Positions 20,520-52,368 of a stretch of 64,000 bases of DNA are shown one piece after another; the first letter of the stretch is position 1, and each line of letters starts with the position of its first letter. Position numbers and translations under genes: made by a program. This DNA is from Styela clava. Taxonomy: Eukaryota; Chordata; Ascidiacea; Stolidobranchia; Styelidae. The stretch is from contig NC_135262.1 in NCBI RefSeq assembly GCF_964204865.1, positions 7,998,001 to 8,062,000 on the forward strand. Reading direction: 5' to 3'. The notes beneath the pieces are model-generated. The model did no database searches. It saw nothing but the letters and a program-made list of their open reading frames with translations, and had not been told where the DNA came from.

Positions 20520-21455
20520 CGAAACGTAAAAAGATAATCTACAATTGTGAGGTATGTGGCAAGGAATCTCAGAATAACATCATTATTTCCGACATCAACA
20601 GGTCCATTCAATTGAATAGCACATAAATGCGAATTGTGTTCGAGAAGTTTTTCAACTAAAGATAGTCTACAAGTACAAGCACACATATATTGACATACTG
20701 GACAGTTGCCACATAAGTGTGTTCACTGTGACAGGGGTTTTCGAAGCAAGTCAAGCCTAACGGCACACGTTAGGGTGCACATTGGCCATAAACCTCACAT
20801 CTGTAATATATGTGGGAAAGATTTTATACCCGTGCCGACCTAAGAAAACATCTACGAAGTGACACACATTAAATCATATAAATGTGAAGAATGTGGGAAG
20901 TGCTTTGTTGATAAGGGGGGTTTGTGTAAGCATGTTGTCATTCGTCTTAAAGAAACAGAATTTAAATGTGATGAATGTGGCGAAGATATGGAAAACAAAC
21001 AAAAAAAAACACTGAAGGAGCATATGCAACCCATGCAAAGGAAAAGCTATTTTCCTGCACAATTTGCTCTGCTTTATTTGTCAGAAAAAAGGTTCGAAAA
21101 ACTATCTGATATGTCATTCAAACAAAAGACCATTTCCATGTGTATGTATGTGAAATTCAAGAGCTCATTAAAAGGCCATTTTTAAACTCATCTGAAACTG
21201 CATATTAAATCCATGCATACAGTGATTCGTGAATTTGAATGCACAGTTTGTGGTAGAAAAGTTCTACATCCCATATCACTTCGCAGCCATATGAAAACGC
21301 ATTGTGATAATAGGCCATTTTATTTTGAGATATGCGGGAAATCATTTCAAGAATAAACATCTTTAAAAATACATCGACGTATACACATGAGTGAAAAACC
21401 CTTTTCGTGTGAAACATGTGGAAAACGATTCAGTCAAAAAGGGGGTCTGGTGATT
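20520..21455 (+). pseudogene. Decayed multi-finger C2H2 zinc-finger gene
   Basis: About nine C2H2 fingers can be followed only by changing frame: KCELCSRSF near 20,627, KCVHCDRGF near 20,713, HICNICGKDF near 20,797, KCEECGKCF near 20,880, KCDECGE near 20,963, ECTVCGRK near 21,237, FEICGKSF near 21,321 and SCETCGKRF near 21,404. Linkers such as HTGQLPHKC and HMSEKPFSC remain. In-frame stops occur (after QAHIY, and after GKSFQE), frames shift several times, and one finger has lost its first cysteine (YFEIC). The parent was a DNA-binding regulator of the large KRAB-less C2H2 class. Introns could explain one or two breaks, but not the stops inside fingers and the lost cysteine. Confidence 0.8.
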
Positions 21456-27185: not shown

Positions 27186-30100
27186 TTAAATTTCAGTTTC
27201 TTCTTCGTCTTCTGAAGCTGACGGCCGACCTCTGACCTCCTCATACCATTTGTTGGTTAATTGTTGCATTTGAGTTCTATTTCTAATCAATTCCTGTGAA
27301 AAGAGATGGAAACAGGCATTCGAGTATATGATTTCATTCTGATGAAGAGCAATGTCAGCAAGACATACCAAGCCTCTCATCCTGCATCAGAACAGTGATG
27401 AAAATTAAAACTGACCAGCCATTATATGTACGATAAGGCTGGTAATATCAGCAAAAACCATTAACTTGACAAAATATATCTTGAGTTACTATCATGGATT
27501 TATGCAGCGGTTTTACTTTCGAGTTTCCAGGTGCTAACCAAATACTAATCATACCAACTTCATTACTCTTTGCAATCATTCACTACCCAAGATCAATTAA
27601 GTGATAAACGAACGGGCTAACTATTCTCAACTGTAGTCAACACCCTGTACGAAAGGGAAGAAAAGTACAACAAACTTGCACATTGCAAAACCCACACATT
27701 TGATCTGTAGAACAGGCTCTCTCTCAGTCTCACCCTTTACTTATTTATAAATGTCAGTTTACCCCTCTTGTGGACTGTTTATGATATCGCACTGTAAGTA
27801 AACTATGAAATATAGCACAGAGGCTAGAAGTCTCTGCAGCAAGAGCATATTAGTATCTATTCAACAAAAGTACTTCTATGCTGTCAACAGCCACATTTGG
27901 CCTTGTACCCCTAGTTGAGAATCGCTGCTGTAAGTATGTGTACCAATATGGAGTTAACTAATTTTGTTCGCCTACTTTACATCAAGTTGTGTAAAGGGAC
28001 TGAAACCTATGGGCAGGGGGTATATCCATTTGGCTAACACAGCCATTCCCATACTCGTGATAGAACTAAAATAAGGGAAATCGGAATAAAATTATGGCCT
28101 AACCCTAACCTGGTACACATATTACGGAAGTACCGGCCACCAAGCATAATACATTAAAGTGTCAGGTAAAAAGCCTACCATTTTTGTTATTCTTCTTGTA
28201 AAAAACGGCATTAGATATTTTGCATCAAAATATGCAAATCCTTTCAATTCTGGTCTCGCAGAAATATATTTTTCTTCGTATTCTTCTTCCGTTAGCTCAG
28301 AAATATGATCTGATTCGATCGCTTTTCCTAACTCTTCAGTTTTACTCATTGTTAAACCGAGTCCGACTGTTTTTAAATCCTGAACTTTCAGACACTGAAA
28401 TAAATTGTAAAGAGCTTTAAAAGTAGAAAAAGTCATTTCTAGGGTAGGACTGTAAAGATAAATGATCAACCCTTACCCTGACAACTGGGAACGTTGCTCC
28501 GCCAAGTAATAATAAAGTGAACAAAACAATAATTAGAGAAGTTGTGATGATAACTTGACGTTTTTCATCGCTGTCAAGCTCCAGATGAAGACTTAAAACA
28601 TAACAAATGGCTCCTCTCAAACCTGAAAAAGGATGACATATTATATTAGAAAACAAAATATCCAAATCTTTGACCAATCGCCATTGTTCTACAATTTCGG
28701 GTCACGAAAAGCGAATTACTGTGTGTATATTTCAAATAATTTGGTTATGATAAGTCGAAAAAAATATTTATGAGATATCAACTGCTTGTTCACAACCCAC
28801 AATGCGAGGGATTTGATGATGATACTTTTTTAATTTTTGTAAAAAAAAAATTTTGACTAAAAAATTTGAAAATTTGAAATCCAGTGAAAACAAGCCAAAA
28901 CTCCGAATCCACAACCCTTCGTCAAAGATTGTTAACATTAGTTTTGAGAATATAAAAAAACACATATACAGATGACAATCAGCAAATATTTTATTACTTA
29001 CCACTAAACCACATGATAAACTGCATTCTTTTTGTTATTTTTGTATCTCGGAAATGATTTAATATCCATGATAAAGGATAAATATTAAGAGCTCTGGCGA
29101 GTAACAGGAGAACCTATAGTAAAAGGTAGCGTTCAAATAATAGAATGAGCGCCTTGCTTCATACAGTCATGTCAGTATAATCTGCTAGGATTGAGACAAT
29201 AACTGTCAATTTGATAATTCTTTCGAACTTCCTGGTGTCAGGTTAACAGTCTGAATTTAGGATTCAAATTATGATTATTATTTAAATTAATATGAGTCAA
29301 GACTTTAAAAACCCAATAATGACTATTTGTGTGACAACATTATGATTCATATCAGAGATATAATGATTTTGTTATGAGGCCATAAATCAATCGAAAAATG
29401 TGAGGAGGGGCAGCTACAAGAGGTTCTTTTATAACTCAAAACTCCCTAATAACAAATAGGAGTACCGAACAAAAATTAATATCAATAGACTTAATTACCA
29501 GTAATAACATTGGCAAATGGAGGAAAACCAAAATTTGAAATCATCATCACACATTTTGAACAGAGCTCGAAAAATTATTACAAATCTAATGAAAGAAAGA
29601 AACTTGTCCTTTTGCCACAAAACCAAGAATTAAACAAATTGTTATCGTGCCGAATTCGTGGCCTAGTGGCTAAATTGTTAGAGACTTAGATATGTTAACA
29701 TTGAAAGGTAAAATCTCAGGTTCGAATCCCATTCCCATCACCTCACCCAGGGTGTATGAATTGCGTAGGCTCTGTCGAACCCTAAATATTCCCGTTCTTC
29801 AGGGCAATAGTAGATTCTTACCCAGCAGTCAGCTGCTTGTATAGAGCCTTGTATGAAGTGAAAGACGCACAAAAAAAATTTAAATATTCACATTGAATAC
29901 AACTGTAACATGAAAAAATATTCAGATTGTTAAACTATGAAATTTTAGATTACAACTCACAATGCTCCAAATAACAAATGCTGGTTGGAAATTGTGTTGA
30001 AAACTGAAGATTGCCATTCCAAGATATGCAAACACACTTGTTTCTGTATAAATTAAGTGAAATTAAATGTTCCATATTACTACTACTATTATCAATATTA

Positions 30101-33100
30101 TTACTATTCAGTGTAGAAAAGGCTCGAGTAACCATTTATAAAACACTTAGAGCATTCAGCAGTGGTTCTCAAACTTTTTACTACCCACCCCCTTGTTTAG
30201 AATTTGCCAAGTCTCGCACCCATCCTCAAAAATAAAGAGCTAACAATAAGCTACGATACAAATAACAGGTAGTAAGGTGAAAGTATGTTTCAGTCAAAAA
30301 ACCTGTTAAATATCCGCAATAAGGCGGGCGAGATCAAACCTAACAAATATTTTCATTTTTAATGGGGAGCGCCCCATCGTTTGCAAACCACTGACTTAGA
30401 GTGACTTAAGTCACTCGTAAATATTATCAACTGCCCACTAGTGGGTTGTGACTCAGTGATAGACTCGATTTCTCACTCAGATGACCGGTGTCTCGACCTG
30501 TGACCTACAGACTCCTACTTAGCACTGTTACTATTAGTGAGTGACTATAAATTCATTATACCTGCCATATAAGCCAGTGTTCTGAGTGTCTGCTGAATGT
30601 TTATTTGTGTCACGAGTGATAGATTGTGATGTGTATAATGTGACATAACTATCCCAGCAAACAGTATTGCCATTATGCCTGAAAATTGAAAATATTTTAG
30701 GAATACATTTGGGAGAAATCATAAAACCATGGATGGGTAGGATAACTGTACTAGAAAACATGATTTTATACTATTCCGAATACTTTAATTTTCTTAAGAT
30801 GATTAATACCATAATTTCAAATATTGGAGAGTAATTCTGATCATGTCATTCCCATCCTATGTTTTATATTAAATAACAAGACCATAATTTATGCCAACTT
30901 TTGATTTGTAAAATATACCGGTAACATAAAATATAATTTTCTGTTTTAGAAAGTCAAATTGAGCATTCACATGATTTGCGTGTTGTCAATCTTTATCAAA
31001 ATAACAAGATTTTAACACATTGACTACAGAAACACTATTTCATAAATTTGAAATTTTCAGGAAAATAAATATAAGTTTAATAATAAAGTCGATCAGAAAA
31101 ACATCTTAGTTTCCATATACACACTGCAATTTGGAAAAGTTCAGTAATCCTCTCACACATTAACACAGTCCTTGGACAAAGGCAATATTATCATAACTTG
31201 ATTAAATAATATCATAGAAAAAGTGGCACATATTAAAAAAAACATAAAGATGGTATTTAGGCGTACATGGTTGACTGGCATGTTTCTAACTACTGCTCTG
31301 TTGACTCTGCCTGTGTGTTTAGTATACCTATATCAACCAACTGTAAGGATAATGTAGCAAAAATCAAAACTAACTCAATAATAAATTTCTGTAACTACTA
31401 TCAAATTAATTTAGAAATAATATAGAAATTGATTATTTTCAAAATGAAACACAAGAAATTATTTGTTTAAAGCAGGATTTGAGAGCAACTAAATATAAAT
31501 GCAATGGATTACTAAATTAAGTATTAAGACAAACTGCATGACAAGCCTACAATAAATAAATGATTTTCCATTCCACAAAATGTTAAATCTGACACAAAAT
31601 CAGTTCTAACAAAAGCAAGACTTCAAACTGAACGCAATACCTGAAAATCCAGCTGCATGAACAATAATAGAAAAAGCAGTTTGATGTGAATTTATTTATA
31701 AAAGCATAGCATTTGTTATTGAAAAATTCAATTATCTTGTTATCTGGATTTCAGACCTGAGGTGCAGAATGCATAATAAAAATTTAATATAGAGAGCACA
31801 AAGAAAGTAAATCATAAATCACTAACTAAGAAGCTTAAAAAAAGTTGGGTAAACAAGTCAGATTTGACAATTTTATCATTGCACAAAAACAAAAGTTATG
31901 GCATTAAAAGTTATGTTTGTAATATTGACCTTTACAATAATTTGTAACTTTTTACTGTAGAATTGACAAAAAAAGACTCTTGAATCAGAAATGAGGTTAA
32001 ATTGACAAACACAAATTAAACAAACCATATAACAACTTACCCGAGAGTTTTAGTCCTTCTGCAAGACCATATGGAATATATGAAAATATCAACATCATTC
32101 CCATCTCCAAAGAAGGAGTTTTACGTAAATCAACCCACTTCATCAAGTAAAATACAGGTTAAGAAAACTATTCATTTGAATGCGTTGAAATTACAGGTTA
32201 AAGTAAGTTCAATAAATAAATAAATATTAATGATAAAAATAAGTTTTCAAATTAAATATCAGTGTATTGGATAAAAAACGGTGAAATGGATAAATATATG
32301 TCACATTGACACTAATACCACATTGTGTTTGACTAAAGTGATTTTAAAAGTCGAATTCGGATTTAGTAATATATTGATATCATTTACTTCCTCACTGACT
32401 CCAGTCTCCTCGACCCTGATCATCTTATTTTCTACAATATAAAATCTCTGAAATAATAGTTTATGCATTTTGTCCGGTTAACGAGCAGGAATTCAAAATA
32501 GGTATTAGAGACTATTTTTCAGATTTATTTAAAAAGATAATCCCTGGGTAATTCAATTCAAACAAAAACAATATTTATAAAGTTTTAAGTGATTTGAGCA
32601 TGATTTGAATTACAAACTAAGCCCGGAAGATAGAAATTGAGCTTAGAAATTGTGGAAAAGGATATCAATGCGCTGATTAAACCCAGCAGAACACCAAGTA
32701 ACGCAGATCCAAACATCATTCTTAAGAAGTCTGTGATTGCATGAGCGAATCTTGAGGATGTGTCATCCTCCGTTTCATTTGCTAATGCTTGGAAAGTGCT
32801 GAACAAAATATTAAAAAATTCATCAATAAATATTACATTTTCATTATCATATATCATTCAAATCTTTCCATTGGCTCAGAAAAAGTAACATTCAAATGCA
32901 AATTTCTATTTCAGTTGTAATGCAGCAAAATTATGATATTATATGCTTTATTGTATTTCAATTTATTAATGTTTAAAATTGAGTATTATTCTATGAATGT
33001 CACATGCACCCACATTATTATCCTGCACGCTAAAAGCCATCATCGGTAAATGCAATAAGTATACATATTATTTTTATGAAATAAACTTTTGGATCAATAC

Positions 33101-36100
33101 TTTTTCAAGTCATAAAACATAATTGTATTGGAAAAAATCATGTGACTATGTATGTCATGTGACATGATCACATGTCTCGGGATCAAGAATAACAATAGAA
33201 ATTACATTGTAAATCTTTAGAAATTTTTAACTGATTGAAGATCACTAGTATTGAAAATTGAACTGAACAAAATCACTCATTTTCTCAAATACCCAAATTT
33301 TTCACAGCTATAATTTTTATTATGCAAGGTTGCACACCAATAAACGTTTCTAACAAAAAAAAATTGTCTGCCTAATATTTGAAAATGTTTAAATTTGATC
33401 CAAAAATTTACATTCGTAATCCTTACTTTGTCAGTACAATCGACACTGCATCGTTGAGAATACTTTCACCAAACACCAACATATTGAGAACGGGATCCAC
33501 ATTTAATGCATTAAATATTGCAATAGTTGCTACAGGATCTACTGCTGATACGAGAGATCCAAATGCAAAACTGTAAAGTAAAAGACTTTTTTTTTATTAA
33601 CCAGACGACAAAGCTCAATTACAATTCGTATCTATAATTCATATTAAATGAATAATAACATGAAATTTACTGAAAAGCTCAAAATCAGCGAAAGCGAAAA
33701 ATTTAGGGTAAAACAAGAGCCCCACGAAACCCAGAAAACATATGAAAAAAATGATAGCTTCCGATTCCGACACTGCTCACGCTCAGTGTAAAATTTATTA
33801 TAAAAATTGATTCAATCCGATGATATCACTGCGCAAACCAACATTTGAAAATGAAAAGAAGAGTATAATTGCTCTCTTCATTTTATTAAATTGGTAGCTG
33901 TGATATAACTTGTAATAATAAACTCTACCTGTCTAACAAAGTAAGGTTATATGCAATTCCTGCAACTCCCATCAAATAAATTCCTCCGCCTACAAACATT
34001 GCAGATATTGTTGTTCCGATCACAGCAAATACCAATATAGATCCGATGTTTTGAAAAAAGTTTCCCTGAAGAATTATATATGATTGTATTATGGACGAGT
34101 AATACAGCTTGCTTTTGTGCATGTAAATGATCATACCACGATAGGATGACCAATACAGACCATCGTACTTATCTTTCAATGTTAATTTTGAAGAAATTTG
34201 ATTACCGTATTTCTATGTGTATAATACGCACATATGTATAATACGCAGGGCTCTTTTAGAATATGGATTGTACAATACACCAAGATCCATGCATAATACA
34301 CATGGCCGATTTCCATCACTCACTTGCGTTGACCGCATTTTTATCTTCGAGAAGCCAGACTGGACAACAACAACAGTCAAACTTTATCTTATCACTTATT
34401 TACACTGGTTATTGGAATATATGTGTTTCCCTTTCATAAACAGGATAGTCCATTCCGCGGGTGTGATTCTACTGCGACAAGCATGATCTAGTTATAACGG
34501 ACCTTGTCACATAAAATTAATATAAATAGGACGGAAACATGTATTCAGCAATTGCGTGTAAAATATCGATCAAGATTTTTTTAAAATTTTTCTATGCCAA
34601 TGCATAATACCCCCTAACTTTAGAGATGAAATCCGGTACCAGAAGTGTGTATTATACACAGAGAAACACGGTATTTTATGTCAATTTCTAAATGCGTTCA
34701 GATAAGAAGTACCGTCATTTTTAAGGAAGTAGATCGAATTTCAGGAAAGCACTTTTAATTCATCATGACAAACAGTTTGGAAACTCTCAGAGTAGAATAC
34801 GGTAAAAGTCAAACAAAAAATTAAATTTGTGATTACAAACCTTATGTAAAGAATATCCGGCTTCAAAAATGATTGGTGGAAGCAATAACAGGAAAAAAGT
34901 ATTTGGACTCAACATCTCTGCATCCTGAAAAAATAAGGAATATATTTATAAATAAGGAATCTTTTAAAACAATTAGGATAAAGAAAAAAAAAACATTTAA
35001 GATCTTTGTTTCTGGAGTCAGGAGGTAAGAGTTTGGCACAAGTTCTTCAGGGTGGAGAACTATCCAGAGTCGAGAGATAAGAGTTGAAATTTTGAAACCT
35101 CCAGAATCCGGAGGGATTTCGTACATTCAATGGTGATAATCAAATTCAAAAATTCAAATCTTCTTGCAGAAATTAAAAAAGCGTTCACAGTCTATTAAAC
35201 AGGGGTTGCATATATAGTTTTCAAAAACAAATTTATAAGAATCCTTTCTTAATTTTGAATTGGAATTATACTTGAACTAGACATCAAGACATGACCAATT
35301 TTAATTCCAGACAAAATCCTAAAAAGTTAATTTCGAATCATTCGAAAAACAAAAATCCATTAATAAATCATGATTTATCAATATGATTGATTTAAAAAAA
35401 TTTAAAACACTCTTTATATAATCAAACGAGAAAGATGAATTATTCCTACGTTGTTATATCTTACCAGCCAATTTCCAACTCCTGCTTTTTGCATCATCCT
35501 TACTACCCCTCCAATAGCAGCCCCTGCAAAGTGAAAAAGTAACAGTATTTTAGAAAACAATATTATGTGTTTCTCAAAATCAGAAAATACCCAGTCAAAC
35601 GTTCTCCATAGCCTACTGGAAACATTGCTAGTTCTTGAACTTCATCTGAAGTTTTGCTTGAGTGTCAATGACTTGAGGACTACTCGGAAGACAAAACAAT
35701 ACAAACTTTATTCTGCGTTCATGAATCATGAATAAGTAAGTATTAGAGAATAATAAAAAACTAAAGTATATTAGTAATACTCCAGCAAATACAAAGCAAA
35801 ATTCCACCCTGGAGAATTATTCCTGCCCTGTTGAGAAACATTGTTCTAACCATTGAAATCCCTGATCGGAATAAAATCATTTAACATTTTATTGCCATGC
35901 TCAGAGTAAAACATGTACAAAAGCTACAAAATCACAACTCCCAATATTTCAGATGATATACATTTTCTTATTGAATAATAAGAACTAAACAACTTACCTA
36001 AAAATACAACAGCAACACTGTCTGGCAAAAGATGAAATTTAAATTTGATGAGAAGATGAGTGAGCAATATGCATAGTGCTGTAAAAATAAAAACATAAAA

Positions 36101-40092: not shown

Positions 40093-43000
40093 CTATTTAC
40101 TAATAATGTCTGGAAAAACCTCTTCAACCATTTCACATAGTAAATTATAGAAAATATGTTTGTTCAATTTCTCATCTTGTAAGGCATGAAAAATCTTAAG
40201 AATGCCACGTCTCGCATTCTCTTGGCCAATTAAGCTTTGAAACGCTTCAGGGATATTCTGTAACAATTTAACTTGTGCCTCCAAAGCCGTTTGAGTTTTC
40301 TCTTCTTCAGATCTTGAGGATGTTAATTTTGGCTTTAGTTGTCCATCGGGCCACATCGAATCCATAAATAATTGAAGATAGTAAGTTAGCATTGGATCAG
40401 AAATAAGCCAATGTAAAGTATCTTTAATTTGTTTATTAATGGTTCCACCGAAAGCAAGCCTCACAAATATAACTAATGTTTTACGTAACGGACGAAACAA
40501 TCCTTGAATTTCAAATATTTCTCCGACAAGTTCATACAACGGTTCAGCAATTGAATCTAAATCAATCACATCATCTGCATCTGTTTCATCGCTGTCAGAA
40601 AGATCGTCTTCGGATCGCAGAACCGACTCAAAAATATCTTTTGGTAATGTAAAAAGTAAATCACCAATTTGCCATAATGATTTTTTACGAGAAGTTTCAC
40701 CGGTAGAAAAAAAGGGATTTGAAGTATTCCTGCGATGACTTTTTCCTCGTAGCAGAGAATCATTTTTAGATTGTTCTGGTGGTTGACTGAGAAAGGCATA
40801 AACTAATTCACTTCGACTTAGTATTTCATCTTCTAAAATATCTTTCAAATATTCGTTTAAAACTACCTTTGATTTATCAAGAAATTTATCCGATATACCA
40901 CCAAACATAGGAATATTTGGTAAACGTTTCTTTTTTAACCAAGGTCGGAGATCACGAAGACTACGGTGCAATAATTTGAATTCATCAAGATTTCTTGCAA
41001 CGACCCAACCAGAAACATCATCTGTAACTTCCAAAAGAGGGACACCAGAACACAATACAATTATACTGTAAACAGGGACTTTCGTCGCATTTTCATCATT
41101 AATAGGCAAAATAGCAACATTATCAATATTCGCACTCCAATTTCCCATTCGAGACCACCACGTTTCCGTTCTTTCGATGTGTAATTGTTGCTGCAATTTG
41201 TCCTTCTGTAAATCAGCGATATCTTGTTGCAATTGCTTCGTCAATTTCTGATCTTGCTTGCCACCAGGTTTGAGACTCTCCAAAGCTTGTGCTTTATATT
41301 CCAATTTTTCTTCAATGTTGCGGAGTTTTTCTATTGCTCCATCAGATGGTGACTTTCTATTTCCAAAAGCAGCTGTACGGTGCGAATAAGAATCGTCTTG
41401 CTCAGGTTGAAATATTGCATCCTCGGAAGTACTATCATCCCTTAATTGTGGCATCAATTGGTAGATGTAAAAATCGCTGACCAAAAAAGATGGAAAATGA
41501 TCCTTTTCTAGTATTTTATAAATCTGTTCTTGGAGAGTGAAAAAGTCATCTGGAGCTTTATTACCCACAACACAAGTTTGCATGCCCTTTAGTAATGATT
41601 TCTCAATATCAATTCCTAATTCATCAGAAGTGCCTGGTACTACATAAGTTTGATAAATATGACTTATGATTTTAGCAAGGTTTTTACCAGTAGGTTCGGT
41701 ATCACGGATAATTTCAACTTCACTCCAAAATTTTAACAACGACCCACGTCCAATTTTTTTCATGTATTTCATGAAATAGCTGCGAGCCATGGGAGATGCC
41801 ATTACCTCAGAATAAGAAAGCAAATGAACGCTTGATGTAATGGCTGCCCCAGATGCCTCGTCTCCAAATTTAGGTTGATTTGAATTGCCATCTCCTCCTA
41901 GTGCTTTTATTCGTTTTTCGCACTGTTGTCTTGCGACTTGACACTGATTAATATAGCGTTTCAAGTCTCGAGATATCAGTAATTCTCCCTTTGCCATACT
42001 CTTCGCTTTCCCCAATTTTTTTTCGTTTTTTTTTAAACTGCTTATTGCAGTAGCATGCATGAGTTCTGTCATGATGTGACGTCTGATTTGATATAATTGA
42101 TTAATATTATCAGTACTGCTAATTATTCGAATAAAATCTTCGTAAGTTGCGGCATACATATACGCTCGTGTTTTCTCCTCTTGCTCAGATTCTCTATGTT
42201 TGATATAAGCTAATATGCTTAGATTAATATAGTCAGGATCACAAATACTATCAATCATTGGCAAAAATACCAAACCAGCCAGAATTTCTCTCAAAATCAA
42301 TTTTGAACTAGAATTTGACGATATATGAATGGGGAAACATAACTTTATAATATATCCACTAATACGGCGAAGAAATTCCTTTTCTGAGTTGGTATCATAG
42401 AGACAAGGGTGAAGACTAAAAAGTTCAGCATTCTTTCGTGAAGGATCTGATGCACTCAGTTCTTTAAAATATTGTACCAATGTTTTTACGAATCTATCCA
42501 TCACTAGATGTGTTATGTCAACTTTGGAGAGATGTTTTGAAAAATATCGATACGCCTCCCAAAAGTCAGCCTTGACTAACTTATGCAAACGTCCATGATC
42601 ATTGCTAACAGTGGCATACCATGTTTCCACAAAGTCTCGGAATGTGTATTCAAATATTCTATTCATAAGCATATCAACATTTTGTGAAACACAAACATAG
42701 GTTCCACTTTGTACACTGCTCCGATCAGGAATTTTACCAAGCATGGCTATTTTGGTTTGTATATGTCGAAGAGATGTACGAGGAGTCTCATGCATGCGGT
42801 AATGCATGTGAATACTTTTTGATAAGCCTTTCAAGAGAACAACAAAAAACTTTTTAATATGGAAAATGAATCCCTCACCAGTTGGTATATCATAATAAGT
42901 GCGATTCCGTAATATTCCATTCTGATTTTGCGACCACGGATATTTATCAACTGCATAGTCAACAGTTTTAATCGCAATATAGATTCCAGTCAATATACCA

Positions 43001-43155
43001 ATCAATGCAGCAACAATCGCAGAAACCATATTGAAAACTTTAGAAGGGATTGCTGTGTCAAACATGTATACGATCCACAAGATTAACAAAATGAGAGTTA
43101 ATTTCCTCCAATTAGAAAAAACAGTAAAAAATTTCAATTTCCGCAAGACATCCAT
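40093..43155 (-). CDS. SNX25: Sorting nexin 25, intronless, second gene of operon
   Basis: A single open frame of 1020 residues. Order seen: two hydrophobic N-terminal segments (LTLILLILWIVYMF and VSAIVAALIGILTGIYIAI) anchoring it in the membrane; a PXA domain (about 150-330, containing IFEYTFRDFVETWY); an RGS-like domain (about 455-580, RSYFMKYMKKIGRGSLLKFW); a coiled coil (about 630-680); a PX domain (about 700-810); and a C-terminal nexin domain with GEIFEIQGLFRPLRKTL, FGGTINKQI, LLQNIPEAFQSLIG and QENARRGILKIFHALQ. The last motifs match SNX25 rather than SNX13, SNX14 or SNX19. The family acts in endosomal sorting, ER-organelle lipid contacts and TGF-beta receptor turnover. The start is 9 bases after the VMA21 stop and gives the expected membrane anchor. 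It has no introns, unlike its vertebrate counterpart. Confidence 0.95.
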   Translation of the reverse strand: MDVLRKLKFFTVFSNWRKLTLILLILWIVYMFDTAIPSKVFNMVSAIVAALIGILTGIYIAIKTVDYAVDKYPWSQNQNGILRNRTYYDIPTGEGFIFHIKKFFVVLLKGLSKSIHMHYRMHETPRTSLRHIQTKIAMLGKIPDRSSVQSGTYVCVSQNVDMLMNRIFEYTFRDFVETWYATVSNDHGRLHKLVKADFWEAYRYFSKHLSKVDITHLVMDRFVKTLVQYFKELSASDPSRKNAELFSLHPCLYDTNSEKEFLRRISGYIIKLCFPIHISSNSSSKLILREILAGLVFLPMIDSICDPDYINLSILAYIKHRESEQEEKTRAYMYAATYEDFIRIISSTDNINQLYQIRRHIMTELMHATAISSLKKNEKKLGKAKSMAKGELLISRDLKRYINQCQVARQQCEKRIKALGGDGNSNQPKFGDEASGAAITSSVHLLSYSEVMASPMARSYFMKYMKKIGRGSLLKFWSEVEIIRDTEPTGKNLAKIISHIYQTYVVPGTSDELGIDIEKSLLKGMQTCVVGNKAPDDFFTLQEQIYKILEKDHFPSFLVSDFYIYQLMPQLRDDSTSEDAIFQPEQDDSYSHRTAAFGNRKSPSDGAIEKLRNIEEKLEYKAQALESLKPGGKQDQKLTKQLQQDIADLQKDKLQQQLHIERTETWWSRMGNWSANIDNVAILPINDENATKVPVYSIIVLCSGVPLLEVTDDVSGWVVARNLDEFKLLHRSLRDLRPWLKKKRLPNIPMFGGISDKFLDKSKVVLNEYLKDILEDEILSRSELVYAFLSQPPEQSKNDSLLRGKSHRRNTSNPFFSTGETSRKKSLWQIGDLLFTLPKDIFESVLRSEDDLSDSDETDADDVIDLDSIAEPLYELVGEIFEIQGLFRPLRKTLVIFVRLAFGGTINKQIKDTLHWLISDPMLTYYLQLFMDSMWPDGQLKPKLTSSRSEEEKTQTALEAQVKLLQNIPEAFQSLIGQENARRGILKIFHALQDEKLNKHIFYNLLCEMVEEVFPDIISK

Positions 43156-43164
43156 TATTAATGT

Positions 43165-43200
43165 CTAATCAGTCTTTTTCTTTTCTACAACTTTTTCTGT
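43165..43200 (-). promoter_or_regulatory. Candidate trans-splice acceptor between VMA21 and SNX25
   Basis: The VMA21 stop TAG is followed by ACATTAATA and the SNX25 ATG, leaving no room for a promoter. The best acceptor is CGCTTACACAG|AAAAAG, inside the last codons of VMA21, giving a 41-base SNX25 leader from 43196. The TAG stop itself is a second AG, but the stretch before it is purine-rich. Use of either would cut into or abut the upstream gene. Confidence 0.45.
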
Positions 43201-43482
43201 GTAAGCGGCGTAAATAAAAAGTCCGAGAACAACATGAACCACTACAATTGAAGTTAAAGCAGATGGCACAATACTCGCATCTTCTGTGAGTTTGAAAAAT
43301 CCTTCGAAAACCAAATTTTTTGCAATATAATATGATGATATTGGACCGGTCACCATAAGAAAAGTATAAAATAGCATTTGTATCACTGTTGAAGCTGGGA
43401 CAGCACCTTGTTCTGCTTGTTTCACTGTTTCTTCATGTAGTTTTTTCTTTAAATATTCTTCTGAACTGGTATTTTCTGACAT
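43165..43482 (-). CDS. VMA21: V-ATPase assembly factor VMA21, first gene of operon
   Basis: 105 residues in one exon. Two transmembrane segments (MLFYTFLMVTGPISSYYIA and the ALTSIVVVHVVLGLFIYAAY region) surround the family motif KNLVFEG. The C-terminus is KKTD, a KKXX-type dilysine ER-retrieval signal in the right place for Vma21. The protein is an ER-resident chaperone for assembly of the V-ATPase membrane sector. A good acceptor (AATTAACAG, exon from 43511) lies 29 bases before the ATG and could accept a spliced leader. A short upstream ATG lies in the leader. Confidence 0.93.
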   Translation of the reverse strand: MSENTSSEEYLKKKLHEETVKQAEQGAVPASTVIQMLFYTFLMVTGPISSYYIAKNLVFEGFFKLTEDASIVPSALTSIVVVHVVLGLFIYAAYTEKVVEKKKTD

Positions 43483-44053
43483 TTTATATCAGTATTTCAT
43501 TTATGAATTAGCTGTTAATTATGAGTATTTTCTCTGGATCAGAATATAGGCATAGCTTATTTTGAATTGTAATCCAATCACATAACACTGTACGGTAACA
43601 CTACAGCATTACTGCACTAAGAGAGAAAACAATCAAAACATAAAATACAGTACTGCAGTAATACCAGGGACCCTTCAGAACCGCTGTACCTACCCAACTT
43701 GTAGACGAGTCTGCCAGTGCTGTAGTGTAGTGACACAGTGATACCGGTACGATTGCTTGCAAATGCAGAAATGTTTGAATGTAATTAGCTATAGGTAGTA
43801 CTATATTTACCTTTCTAATGCGAAACTGTTCGTTCATCACATCACTAAAACACATGATTGAAAACATTGACTCGTCTTCGTAGGTTAGCGAAATACTAAG
43901 AACGATAAACCCTAAGTGACTATAACCCTTGGATAACCCCAACCTCTAAATCTAAATGATTGACTTGCATCTTGTCTCATGCGACACAACAGACAGACAG
44001 ACTGACAGTGACAGGTCAAAATTTATTCAATCAGGAATAGCGGACTTGCACGG

Positions 44054-44083
44054 TTCACGTGACTTTGTTTACGCCGCCATTTT
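44054..44083 (-). promoter_or_regulatory. CLEAR-like E-box and YY1-like site upstream of VMA21
   Basis: 44054-44063, read on the minus strand, is GTCACGTGAA, nine of ten with the TFEB/MITF CLEAR consensus GTCACGTGAC. 44074-44083 is CCGCCATTTT, a YY1-type element common near animal transcription starts. Both lie about 570-600 bases before the VMA21 ATG, separated from it by a stretch that could be an outron. Confidence 0.5.
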
Positions 44084-44357
44084 GGACGGCAAAAAATAAA
44101 TAAAAACGTCCAGACCTCGCTCCTGTCAGTTGCAAGTCGCGTTGATTAATGACATAATAAATGACAAATCAGGCATAGGGCAGATCTCCAAATGTTTAAA
44201 TTCAAACTGTGAGTATTTCAACTTACAATGTATGTGTGGATTCAAACAAAATATTTTAGATGTGGAAAATCACGGGACTTGCCATTTTAATATCAGCAAG
44301 ACTACAAGAAGATTTATCTAAATTGTGATCCAACAGGCGGAGTCTCAAAAAGGTCGT

Positions 44358-44519
44358 GTCCCACTAGTCCCACGTGTCTCCCTTGTCCCACTTGTACCAC
44401 GTGTTCCACTTGTCCCACGTGCCCCACTCATCCCACGTGTCGCACTTGTACCACGTGTCCAACTTGTCCCAATTGCCTCACGTGTCTTACATGTCCCACT
44501 TGTCCAACTTGTCACATGT
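44358..44519. repeat. 9-bp minisatellite forming an E-box cluster
   Basis: Eighteen consecutive 9-base units close to GTCCCACKT, without length drift. CGT and CTT endings largely alternate, giving an 18-base higher period. Six units create CACGTG (first bases at about 44371, 44398, 44416, 44434, 44452 and 44479) and four create CACTTG. Translation gives a Val-Pro-Leu/Arg repeat, which is a by-product. Confidence 0.9.
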
Positions 44520-46369: not shown

Positions 46370-47802
46370 ATGGAAAAGCCACAAATAATAAGTCATATCG
46401 AGAAATCGCTAGACTTCACGTTATTTGACTGCAAATGGATACCCAGGAGTGCAAGGTTTGTTGTTCTCGGAAGTTATCCGCGCGGTACTGGTGCAATTTT
46501 GGTGTATGAAATATCCCATAGAGAAATCAAGAAAATTAATGACAAAGAAACACCAGCCTCTATGAAATGTGGAACGTTTGCTGCATCGTCATTACAGGTA
46601 TGTCATATACTGATATAGGTTCTGACTTTGCGAACATTTGTACTGTATGGTACCGTAACGTCTGAACGTAGGTACGGTACCTGCAGACACAGAGACATGA
46701 ACTGGCAAAAAATTCCCGGTTTTTATTATCTTTTTTTCACCGAATGGTATAGGCCTACCTAAAATCCTTTGTTATATGGTAGGCCTACCACTCTTTTGAC
46801 AAACTTCAAAGAATACTAGACAGATACGAAGGCATGATCTTTTGTATCACATGATTTAATAATGTTTTACTTGTGAAATTTGTTGAGGAATAGTCATGTT
46901 TGACTCCCTCTCTATCATAGCATATGACATGAAATTGCAAAATATTTCAAAAATTTTAAATCACTTTTCAGTCACGGAATCTAGCAACTGGGGACTTTAG
47001 AGGGCACCTGACAGTATGGGATATTGAGACTATGCAGGATGTATATTCAGTACCAGCACATAATCAAATCATTAATGCAATTGATGGTGTAGGAGGATTG
47101 GGTGTTGGAGAAGGTGCACCAGAAATTGTCACTGGAAGCCGTGATGGTTGTGTAAAAGTGTGGGACGTTCGCCAGAAAAATGTTCCTGTGGCCAACATGG
47201 AGCCGGAAGAAGGGCAGGAGACGAGAGATTGCTGGACTGTTGCTTTCGGAAATGCTTTCAATTCAGAAGATAGATGTGTATGTGCGGGATATGATAATGG
47301 TGATATCAAATTATTTGATTTGAAAACAATGTCTATTCGTTGGGAGACTAATTTATCAAATGGGGTTTGTGCAGTTGAATTTGATCGGAAGGACATAGCT
47401 ATGAACAAATTAGTTGCAGCTTCACTTGAAGGAAAGTTCCAAGTTTTTGATTTACGAACACAGCATCGTACTAAGGGTTTTGCTTCGCTTACTGAGAAAG
47501 CACACAAGTCTACTGTGTGGCTGTGCAAACATTTACCGCAAAACCGAGACGTGTTTGTGACAACTGGAGGTGCTGGGTCATTAAATCTATGGAAATATGA
47601 ATATCCTCCCAAGAGATGTAAAACAGAAGACAATGAACAAGTCGGTGTTGTTGGTAATGTTCAGCTACTGCAGAATGCAATGCTTTCAACGCAACCTATT
47701 TGTGGATTTGACTGGAGTCCAGATAAATTAGGCCTAGGAGTTTGTACAGCTTTTGATCAATCACTGAGGGTAATTATAACCACAAAGCTAAACTCTTTGT
47801 AG
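46370..47802 (+). CDS. DNAAF10: DNAAF10/WDR92, WD-repeat axonemal dynein assembly factor, 2 exons
   Basis: Exon 1 is 46370-46597 (donor CAG|GTATGT) and exon 2 is 46972-47802 (acceptor TTTTCAG). Together they encode 352 residues, near the human 357. Near-identity to the family is clear: [12 protein letters not shown] at the start, [105 protein letters not shown] and [15 protein letters not shown]. It forms a seven-bladed WD propeller and works with R2TP/prefoldin-like chaperones in cytoplasmic preassembly of ciliary dyneins. No clear RFX X-box was seen upstream. ATTAAA at 48035-48040 is a candidate polyadenylation signal. Confidence 0.96.
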
Positions 47803-49781: not shown

Positions 49782-50322
49782 CAGTGGCGGCGCGCCAATA
49801 GGGCCAACCGGGGCAATGCCCCGGTTGTTTTTTCGGTATAATAAAGAAATATTCGAAAAATACCTCAATATCGGTTGCACAGACTGTCTACACTAGCCAT
49901 ATTCTCCCGACATGGTTCATTTTTCGCTCGCAAAGCCTTCGCCGAACGTCGACGGGGTGACGTCGATTTTGCCCCGGTTGCTCATTGTATATCGTATTCT
50001 CTCTTTTATCTTCCACTCGCCGCGTTTGCCTCGTTTGTTTTCTGTTTCTTTTACTAAATCAACGGGGCCGATCGGGGCTAGCCCCGAAATTATGACGACA
50101 CAATGCCGACGTTTCTTACAACAACGTGTTGACATATTCACGCATTCCTTCTCGTTCGTTGGTTGCTTGAAGAGTTGATAGTTTCCTCGCCTTCGTTTTT
50201 GTCGCTTGTTTCGCTATTTGAATCAGTTAGAGACCTTCAGTCCATTTGCTTTCGATTTTCCACATTCCTTTTGAGCTCCTCACTTCTTTCCGGCTTCGCA
50301 TTTCTTAGCCTTAGACCTCAAA

Positions 50323-52368
50323 ATGAATAAGGTTGATGCACTACTTCGCACTCCGTTTTCGCAGCTGCCGCTGGAACAAAAATTAGAGGTACAACGTCTT
50401 GGGCCTTATCAACCAAAAAATTGTTCACTGGAACAATCCCATGACGGAGGAAAGCGTCGGCGTACATTCTGCGCAGAAACTTGGTATAAAAAACACGAAT
50501 GGTTGTGTTACAGCAAGGACAAAAATGCACTTTTTTGTTTTTATTGCCTACTTTTTGCTACCGCCCGTGACTCACGTTGGTGTAAATTTGGTTTTAGAGA
50601 TCTTAAACATCTTTTCGAGCGTGCCAGGGATCATCAATCTTCTATGGAGCATCTGGACAATGCAGTAAAATACCGAACATTCGGAAATGTTAATATTGCA
50701 GCACAGTTGGATGAAGGACGCGCGGTTTCTATGCGTCGGCACAACCAAAACGTCGAGAAAAACCGCCATGTTCTCGGTCGATTGATAGATGTTTTGAAGT
50801 TCATTGGTTGTCACGAGCTGTCCCTCCGTGGGCACGATGAACGGGCTGGCTCTTCTAATAGAGGGGTATTTTTGGATATGGTGGAATACACCGCATCCCT
50901 AGATACAGTATTGAGAGATCATCTTGATGCCGCAACTGTTTCAAAAGGGACATCTAAGGATATCCAAAATGATTTGCTCGACTCAATGTATAAAATTTAT
51001 TTACAACATTTGGCTCTGGAAATTGAGAATTGCCAGTTCCTTTCGATTCAGTCTGACGAGACAACTGACATCACGTGCGTTTCCCAACTGGCTGTGATTT
51101 TTCGGTTTGTGAAAGATGGTAAACCTACCGAGAGATTTCACAGCTTTGTACCAATCGTTGATCGCACGGCTTGCGGGATATCGGCTGTACTGAAAGAAGT
51201 GTTACAGCCTCACAACGCGAAGTCAAAATTGATAGCTCAAACTTATGACGGCGCGGCAGTCATGAGTGGGTTGAAACAAACATGGTGTTCAAGTTTATAT
51301 AAAAGAAGATTTTCCTCATGCGCATTTTTTACATTCTTATGCACACCAATTTAACCTCGTTATTAAAAATATGTGTCTTGATACCCCTCTCGTCCGTATA
51401 TTTTTTGCAAATGTTTCGGGGTTTTCTTCATTTTTTTTTCGTTTCGCCGAAGCGCTCTGACCTCCTTCGCCATCAATGTAGCCACCGTCTCCCAGCTTGT
51501 GCACCAACACGTTGGAACTTCCAATCACGCGTGGTGCAGGGCGTGTCCGAAATTAGGTCTGAGCTCATTGAGTGTTTCAATAGCATTCAGAGCTCTCCGG
51601 TTTGGGACGAACGCTCTGTGAGGGAGGCGGCAGGTCTAAAGCGTCTGCTAGAAGATGGTGAGTTTTCATTTTTTCTCCACAATATTCTATCACGTGGATG
51701 TATTATACGGCGCATTGCAGTCAAGGCTAATGGATGGAGCGTCTGTGCAGTCGTGTATTTCAGATTTCTGCGATGCTGTATCTCGTATCCGGGAAACAAT
51801 AAAATACGACGACACATGGAGTGCTTCTTTACGCCGCGGGCAAACAACGCAGCGTTTGATTTTGTCTGCAAAGGAATGCTGTGACATTCTGGTGAATCAA
51901 ATAGGCGATCGTCTGCGCACTGAACACCTTGCCGCGTTCTCTTTGATGAACCCCAAAAATTTTTCAAAATTTGCACGTCAATTTCCCATCCATTTGTTGG
52001 CTACTGTCTCCAAATTTTACCCCATGATAAACGTGGGTAAATTGGAAAATGAATTGCGATGTATATACACCAATCAAACTTTTTTGAACATCACATCAAC
52101 TTGCGCGCTCTATGGGTTCCTCATAGATAACACTCTAGTAACTAACTACCTTTGCGGCGTCTGCAAAATTTCTGGACATCATTTTGACGACGCCTATTTC
52201 TTCCGCCGACGCAGAGCGAACATTCAGCACGCTGAAGCGTATTAAAACGTATTTCAGAAACACAATGAAGCAAGATAGATTAAATTCCTTGGCTGTTTTA
52301 TCCATTCACAGAGACGTTATATCTGGGATGCATGACTTTAATCATCGCGTTAGGATAGGATAGGATTT
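50323..52368 (+). pseudogene. hAT transposase (TTF/ZMYM-like class) with at least four frameshifts
   Basis: It begins MNKVDALLRTPF. A cysteine-rich TTF-type zinc-finger region follows (RRTFCAETWYKKHEWLCYS, FCFYCLLF, HLFERARDH), then a DUF4371-like block with SIQSDETTDI (catalytic first Asp region) and AQTYDGAAVMSG. The frame then changes at about 51275, 51455, 51665 and 52150. The recovered parts include HSYAHQFNLVIKN, the CAPTRWNFQSR block, and the hAT dimerisation domain with TTPISSADAERTFSTLKRIK. The last codons run into the nested SINE, so the true stop is displaced. Class II cut-and-paste transposase in origin; not functional as read. Confidence 0.9.

Follow-up and report, generated by a model that had tools for sequence, protein, structure and literature searches.

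Tunicates are known to use spliced leaders (SLs), and operons resolved by SL trans-splicing have been described in Ciona (PMC2760879; PMC7986045). Candidate operons in Ciona were defined as pairs of genes on the same strand less than 100 bp apart, and 1,310 were found (PMC2760879). According to that source, single-exon genes account for 38% in operons versus 15% elsewhere, and a single-exon gene is the first gene in 60% of operons. The median intercistronic distance is given as 1 bp and the Ciona leader as 16 bases in length (PMC7986045). The same account names the SL1-type operons of C. elegans as a parallel and gives an intercistronic distance of at most 60 bp for the operons of Oikopleura dioica. 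Here we describe a candidate operon in the tunicate Styela clava, in which VMA21 and SNX25 lie 9 bases apart. The pair is located in a stretch of 64,000 nucleotides (the window; contig NC_135262.1, positions 7,998,001 to 8,062,000), and all coordinates refer to this window unless another contig is named. Among the papers searched for VMA21, SNX25, and operons, the 3 that combine at least two of these terms never mention SNX25.

The VMA21-SNX25 pair

The pair consists of the following features.
43165-43482, minus strand: VMA21, V-ATPase assembly chaperone, 105 amino acids, single coding exon (Pfam PF09446, 4e-17)
43156-43164, minus strand: spacer between VMA21 and SNX25, 9 bases, a multiple of three and free of stop codons
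40093-43155, minus strand: SNX25, endosome sorting protein, 1,020 amino acids, single coding exon (domain order PXA-RGS-PX-Nexin_C)

Each frame is intronless and runs unbroken from its ATG to its stop codon, and VMA21 precedes SNX25 on the minus strand. The PXA, RGS, PX, and Nexin_C domains match at 7.8e-10 to 9.4e-29, all above the Pfam cut-offs. The long frame is assigned to SNX25 and not to a sister nexin because its six best PDB matches are all RGS or PX chains of SNX25. The first-pass annotation of this DNA, which was made from sequence alone, had described two complete intronless genes on one strand and 9 bases apart; the frames and the Pfam and PDB matches agree with that description. 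VMA21 ends in KKTD, a KKXX-type signal for retrieval to the endoplasmic reticulum (ER). The C-terminal KKXX of Vma21 is described as an ER-retrieval signal (PMC10309153; PMC4894975).

The gap was measured from the TAG of VMA21 to the first in-frame ATG of SNX25. This ATG is the likely start codon; the next in-frame methionine is residue 31 and the first Pfam domain begins only at residue 158, which leaves the start unproven. The best-scoring stretch of SNX25 by codon score starts at 43059, so the first 32 codons are not vouched for by that score. At 9 bases the gap lies inside the 100 bp limit used for Ciona, and at 99 bases it would still do so with residue 31 as the start. Both coding regions are uninterrupted, as in the single-exon genes of Ciona operons.

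As the spacer is 9 bases long and holds no stop codon, SNX25 is in phase with VMA21, with one stop codon between them. With translation starting at the first ATGs, no 3' untranslated region (UTR) could fit between the two genes, and either the mRNAs must overlap or the first gene must be read from a long RNA.

The assembly contains 376.6 Mb in 379 contigs. A six-frame search with SNX25 returned two matches from 6 scored candidates: its own locus, at 100% over residues 1-1020, and an RGS-domain match on another contig (C18) with 28.6 bits. A DNA search across the VMA21/SNX25 junction gave one match. SNX25 is thus single copy in the assembly. The first-pass annotation had held that a retrocopy of a spliced locus elsewhere would overturn its operon; for SNX25, one locus and no spliced parent were found, and the lack of a second SNX25 in the assembly rules out a retrocopy with a surviving parent. 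Among viral contigs, no relatives of SNX25 were confirmed.

A second tight pair and the tunicate context

URM1 was chosen as a further operon candidate because it is a member of a Ciona operon, DTL-URM1-CHERP (PMC2760879). It was the sole further candidate looked up, so that one of one gives no frequency. The pair found is as follows.
L018 1489-1785 (contig C4, near 11166364), same strand as MTERF4: URM1, complete single-exon frame (Pfam PF09138, 1.8e-36)
L018 1792-2940 (contig C4), same strand as URM1: MTERF4, 382 amino acids, uninterrupted (mTERF Pfam match, 1.7e-10; PDB match to MTERF4/mTERF domain-containing protein 2, 4e-31)

The stop codon of URM1 is separated from the first MTERF4 ATG by 6 bases, in frame. 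This ATG is the presumed MTERF4 start; the MTERF4 matches begin at a residue number of at least 138, and the next methionine is residue 13, with which the gap would be 42 bases. Both tight pairs keep the frame, with spacers of 9 and 6 bases that are multiples of three. In Ciona, URM1 sits with DTL and CHERP, whereas the downstream partner of URM1 here is MTERF4 and not CHERP.

Splice sites were scored with generic weights not trained on Styela clava, and acceptor levels are given as the fraction among 6,086 AGs on both strands. A good acceptor lies immediately before the ATG of URM1 (TTCTATTTTACCAG/ATG, 2.8% level), which is what leader splicing would give. The motif ATGGCGG, which we take to be YY1-like, occurs approximately 500-600 bases before the ATG of both first genes, VMA21 and URM1; in the whole window it has 7 sites, counting both strands.

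A cellulose synthase (CesA)/glycosyl transferase frame is present at C9:16177232-16178056 (PF13632, 1.9e-16; PF03552, 8.6e-7). A frame matching glycosyl hydrolase family 6 (GH6; C9:16179889-16180170, 9.9e-11) lies 1.8 kb from it on the same strand, and the two frames presumably belong to one gene. Cellulose synthase with GH6 is described as a tunicate hallmark, and a second tunicate gene, GH6-1, has also been described (PMC7464555). One place passed the GH6 search, which did not show a second GH6 gene (GH6-1). GH6 was found in 0 of 14 control genomes, a weak control in that one named control genome is an archaeon. The genome is taken to be that of a tunicate because the CesA and GH6 frames stand side by side.

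Candidate signals and routes of expression

The signals upstream of and within VMA21 are listed below in order of transcription.
44053..44082, minus strand: probable promoter, with a presumed YY1-like motif ATGGCGGC and a presumed E-box GTCACGTGAA, approximately 600 bases before the VMA21 ATG
43805..43810, minus strand: candidate 5' splice donor AAAG/GTAAAT, of a possible 5' UTR intron
43611..43616 (first bases after the sites), minus strand: candidate acceptors TTTTCTCTCTTAG and TTAGTGCAG, both ahead of VMA21 (4.3% and 0.9% levels)
43196 (first base after the site), minus strand: TTTATTTACGCCGCTTACACAG, a candidate 3' splice acceptor, or one for trans-splicing, within codon 96 of VMA21 (5.0% level)

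The E-box GTCACGTGAA, next to the YY1-like motif within 44054-44080, resembles what we take to be a CLEAR-type element of lysosomal genes. There are 12 ATGs from 44080 to the VMA21 start, and a leader from a promoter at this place would therefore probably be shortened by splicing. The acceptors at 43616 and 43611 may serve either to remove an intron from the 5' UTR or to receive a leader. Leader regions of some 500-600 bases would be normal, because the stretch that precedes the first acceptor in trans-spliced genes of Ciona is reported to have a median length of 458 bp (PMC11155486).

The acceptor at 43196 is about as strong as the genuine acceptor of the neighbouring gene WDR92 (5.9% level). 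Splicing at this site would take off the last 10 residues of VMA21, including KKTD, and one precursor could therefore not give both a SNX25 mRNA and an intact VMA21 mRNA. Human VMA21 p.93X, which also loses KKXX, is reported to impair lysosomal acidification (PMC10309153). The AG of the TAG stop codon, at 43165, had been put forward in the first-pass annotation as another place for a leader; it was rejected as very poor, as 92.6% of AGs score equal or better.

The explanation that we favour, and hold to be somewhat better than an even proposition, is that VMA21 and SNX25 form a tunicate-type dicistronic transcription unit with either-or output, in which the SNX25 mRNA is made by SL trans-splicing inside the VMA21 frame. 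A promoter near 44.05 kb would drive one precursor through both genes. A leader would be joined to an acceptor within the VMA21 frame, of which 43196 is the best placed, and would yield the SNX25 mRNA. Precursors left uncut at 43196 would provide the VMA21 mRNA, ending within or beyond SNX25. With 9 bases from the stop to the first ATG, each precursor would then give an intact VMA21 mRNA or a SNX25 mRNA, never both, and the cut would remove the KKXX of VMA21. Leaky scanning from the VMA21 start to SNX25 was considered and is unlikely, because five further ATGs occur within the VMA21 frame before SNX25 is reached.

Several results weigh against this explanation. Of the 188 AGs within the VMA21 and SNX25 frames, the acceptor at 43196 comes only 6th by score. 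The interval 43150-43300 contains 10 AGs, of which 2 reach that score where approximately 0.5 are expected; the site is compatible with use, but it is no proof of it and is not clearly above chance. Neither the end of VMA21 nor the spacer holds a canonical AATAAA, and the nearest variants of the poly(A) signal are AATAAT at the VMA21/SNX25 junction and ATTAAA inside SNX25 at 42972. The published Ciona distances run from the poly(A) site to the SL site, not from stop to start (PMC7986045). The Ciona leader with its following GT, ATTCTATTTGAATAAGGT, searched in the assembly with up to one mismatch, gave 2 matches versus 3 for the reversed control, and neither of the 2 is followed by an Sm motif. 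A looser pattern, AATAAGGT...AGCTTTGG, gave 3 matches in the assembly versus 6 in the control. Because these pattern searches did not detect a Ciona-type SL RNA, trans-splicing is here an inference; a diverged leader is possible in Styela clava. A tunicate without an SL would favour cis-splicing or reinitiation.

The claims of the first-pass annotation are accordingly divided. Its statement that intronless genes are common in ascidian operons agrees with the Ciona figures (38% versus 15%; PMC2760879). Its operon resolved by a spliced leader stands as an operon-like pair, given the anatomy, the second tight intronless pair, and the Ciona rules, but the Ciona-type SL RNA was not found. The good acceptor that it placed in the last codons of VMA21 does exist at 43196, with a rank close to chance. 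Its suggestion that the making of SNX25 mRNA may truncate or exclude VMA21 is a matter of geometry, provided that splicing does take place at an acceptor within VMA21, and is limited by that same rank.

A route that needs no leader is a shared first exon with alternative cis-splicing, in which a 5' UTR exon with its 3' end near 43810 would be spliced to an acceptor just ahead of VMA21 or to the one at 43196, so that a single promoter yields both mRNAs. The donor-like AAAG/GTAAAT at 43810 and the acceptors at 43616 and 43611 would suit such an arrangement, as would the failure to find a Ciona-type SL by pattern searches. In the generic donor model, however, this donor fails to exceed 4 bits, and SL use is known in tunicates; we regard this route as unlikely. 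The two proteins might instead be translated from a single dicistronic mRNA, by termination and reinitiation or by rare readthrough over the 9-base spacer. That the spacers of both tight pairs are multiples of three would fit, and so would the lack of a canonical poly(A) signal between VMA21 and SNX25, but two of two in frame is expected by chance once in nine cases. Reinitiation past a frame of 105 codons is normally poor, and double translation is in our view decidedly unlikely.

The remaining alternatives dispense with an operon. VMA21 and SNX25 may be two independent genes, packed together by coincidence, with a promoter for SNX25 inside or just upstream of VMA21. Their co-transcription is an inference, which leaves room for this view, but it must account for a spacing of 9 bases, for URM1-MTERF4 as another such pair elsewhere in this genome, and for the prevalence of such pairs in Ciona (PMC2760879; PMC7986045), and it is very unlikely. 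It is likewise conceivable that the pair was copied from a spliced locus that it then replaced, or that introns were lost through cDNA. A SNX25 of 1,020 codons that is entirely intronless is what a retrocopy would look like; yet the assembly holds no other SNX25, both frames are intact, and no long A-tract was seen by eye in 800 bases around and after the SNX25 stop. A retrocopy is most improbable.

The operon reading of the pair is likely, and reflects more than chance, but it belongs to a kind of system already known. More interesting is the frame-keeping spacing in both pairs examined. Gaps of 6-9 bases between frames leave no intergenic 3' UTR and so pose a choice between either-or RNA processing and translation of two proteins. 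Such in-phase pairs might form a "zero-room" class in this tunicate. Their two proteins would come either from RNA processing within the first coding region that is obligately either-or, or from one dicistronic mRNA read by reinitiation or readthrough, an arrangement that would be prokaryote-like in a chordate. This generalization is put forward tentatively and is itself quite unlikely.

Neighbouring genes and comparison with described operons

Besides VMA21 and SNX25, 30 frames of the window were scanned with Pfam, a set in which further genes may be missed. The following were recognized.
46370-46597 and 46972-47799, plus strand: WDR92/DNAAF10, two exons and one intron, divergent from VMA21
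33426-33593, minus strand: piece of a Na+/H+ exchanger (Pfam 43 bits, above the cut-off)
28420-28701, minus strand: piece of a Na+/H+ exchanger (Pfam 16.9 bits, below the cut-off; best PDB match a NHE9 chain, 8.4e-6)
50275-51351, plus strand: DUF4371 frame (Pfam match), a domain presumably linked to hAT transposases
20844-21182, plus strand: C2H2 zinc finger frame (Pfam 27.9 bits versus a cut-off of 27)

The first-pass annotation had stated that the other well-read genes have introns, and this is true for both neighbours resolved, WDR92/DNAAF10 and the Na+/H+ exchanger. The exchanger pieces (28420-33593) lie downstream of VMA21-SNX25 on the same strand, and there are perhaps three genes of endosome acidification and sorting in a row. 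A tandem array of approximately 17 copies of TGTCCCACT occupies 44357-44513, between VMA21 and WDR92, and contains six CACGTG sites. Neither Rfam nor a tRNA scan gave any match in the window, and Rfam gave none on ten other stretches. No relatives of WDR92 were confirmed among the genome contigs searched.

Compared with the operons of Ciona intestinalis/robusta as described (PMC2760879; PMC7986045), VMA21-SNX25 is likewise a same-strand pair of two genes in a tunicate, separated by less than 100 bp and composed of single-exon genes, the first gene included. It differs in that what nearly abuts here (9 bases) is the two reading frames, rather than a poly(A) site and an SL site, and in that the pattern searches detected no Ciona-type SL. 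With the SL1-type operons of C. elegans it shares the lack of an intercistronic region. Either-or processing is expected of those operons. Unlike in C. elegans, the overlap here would extend into the upstream coding sequence, and the phylum and the leader are different. The operons of Oikopleura dioica, in which one SL is used, also consist of tightly spaced genes on the same strand in a tunicate. The present pair differs from them in the size of its assembly (376.6 Mb, or 377 Mb) and in the overlap proposed here between a coding region and an acceptor.

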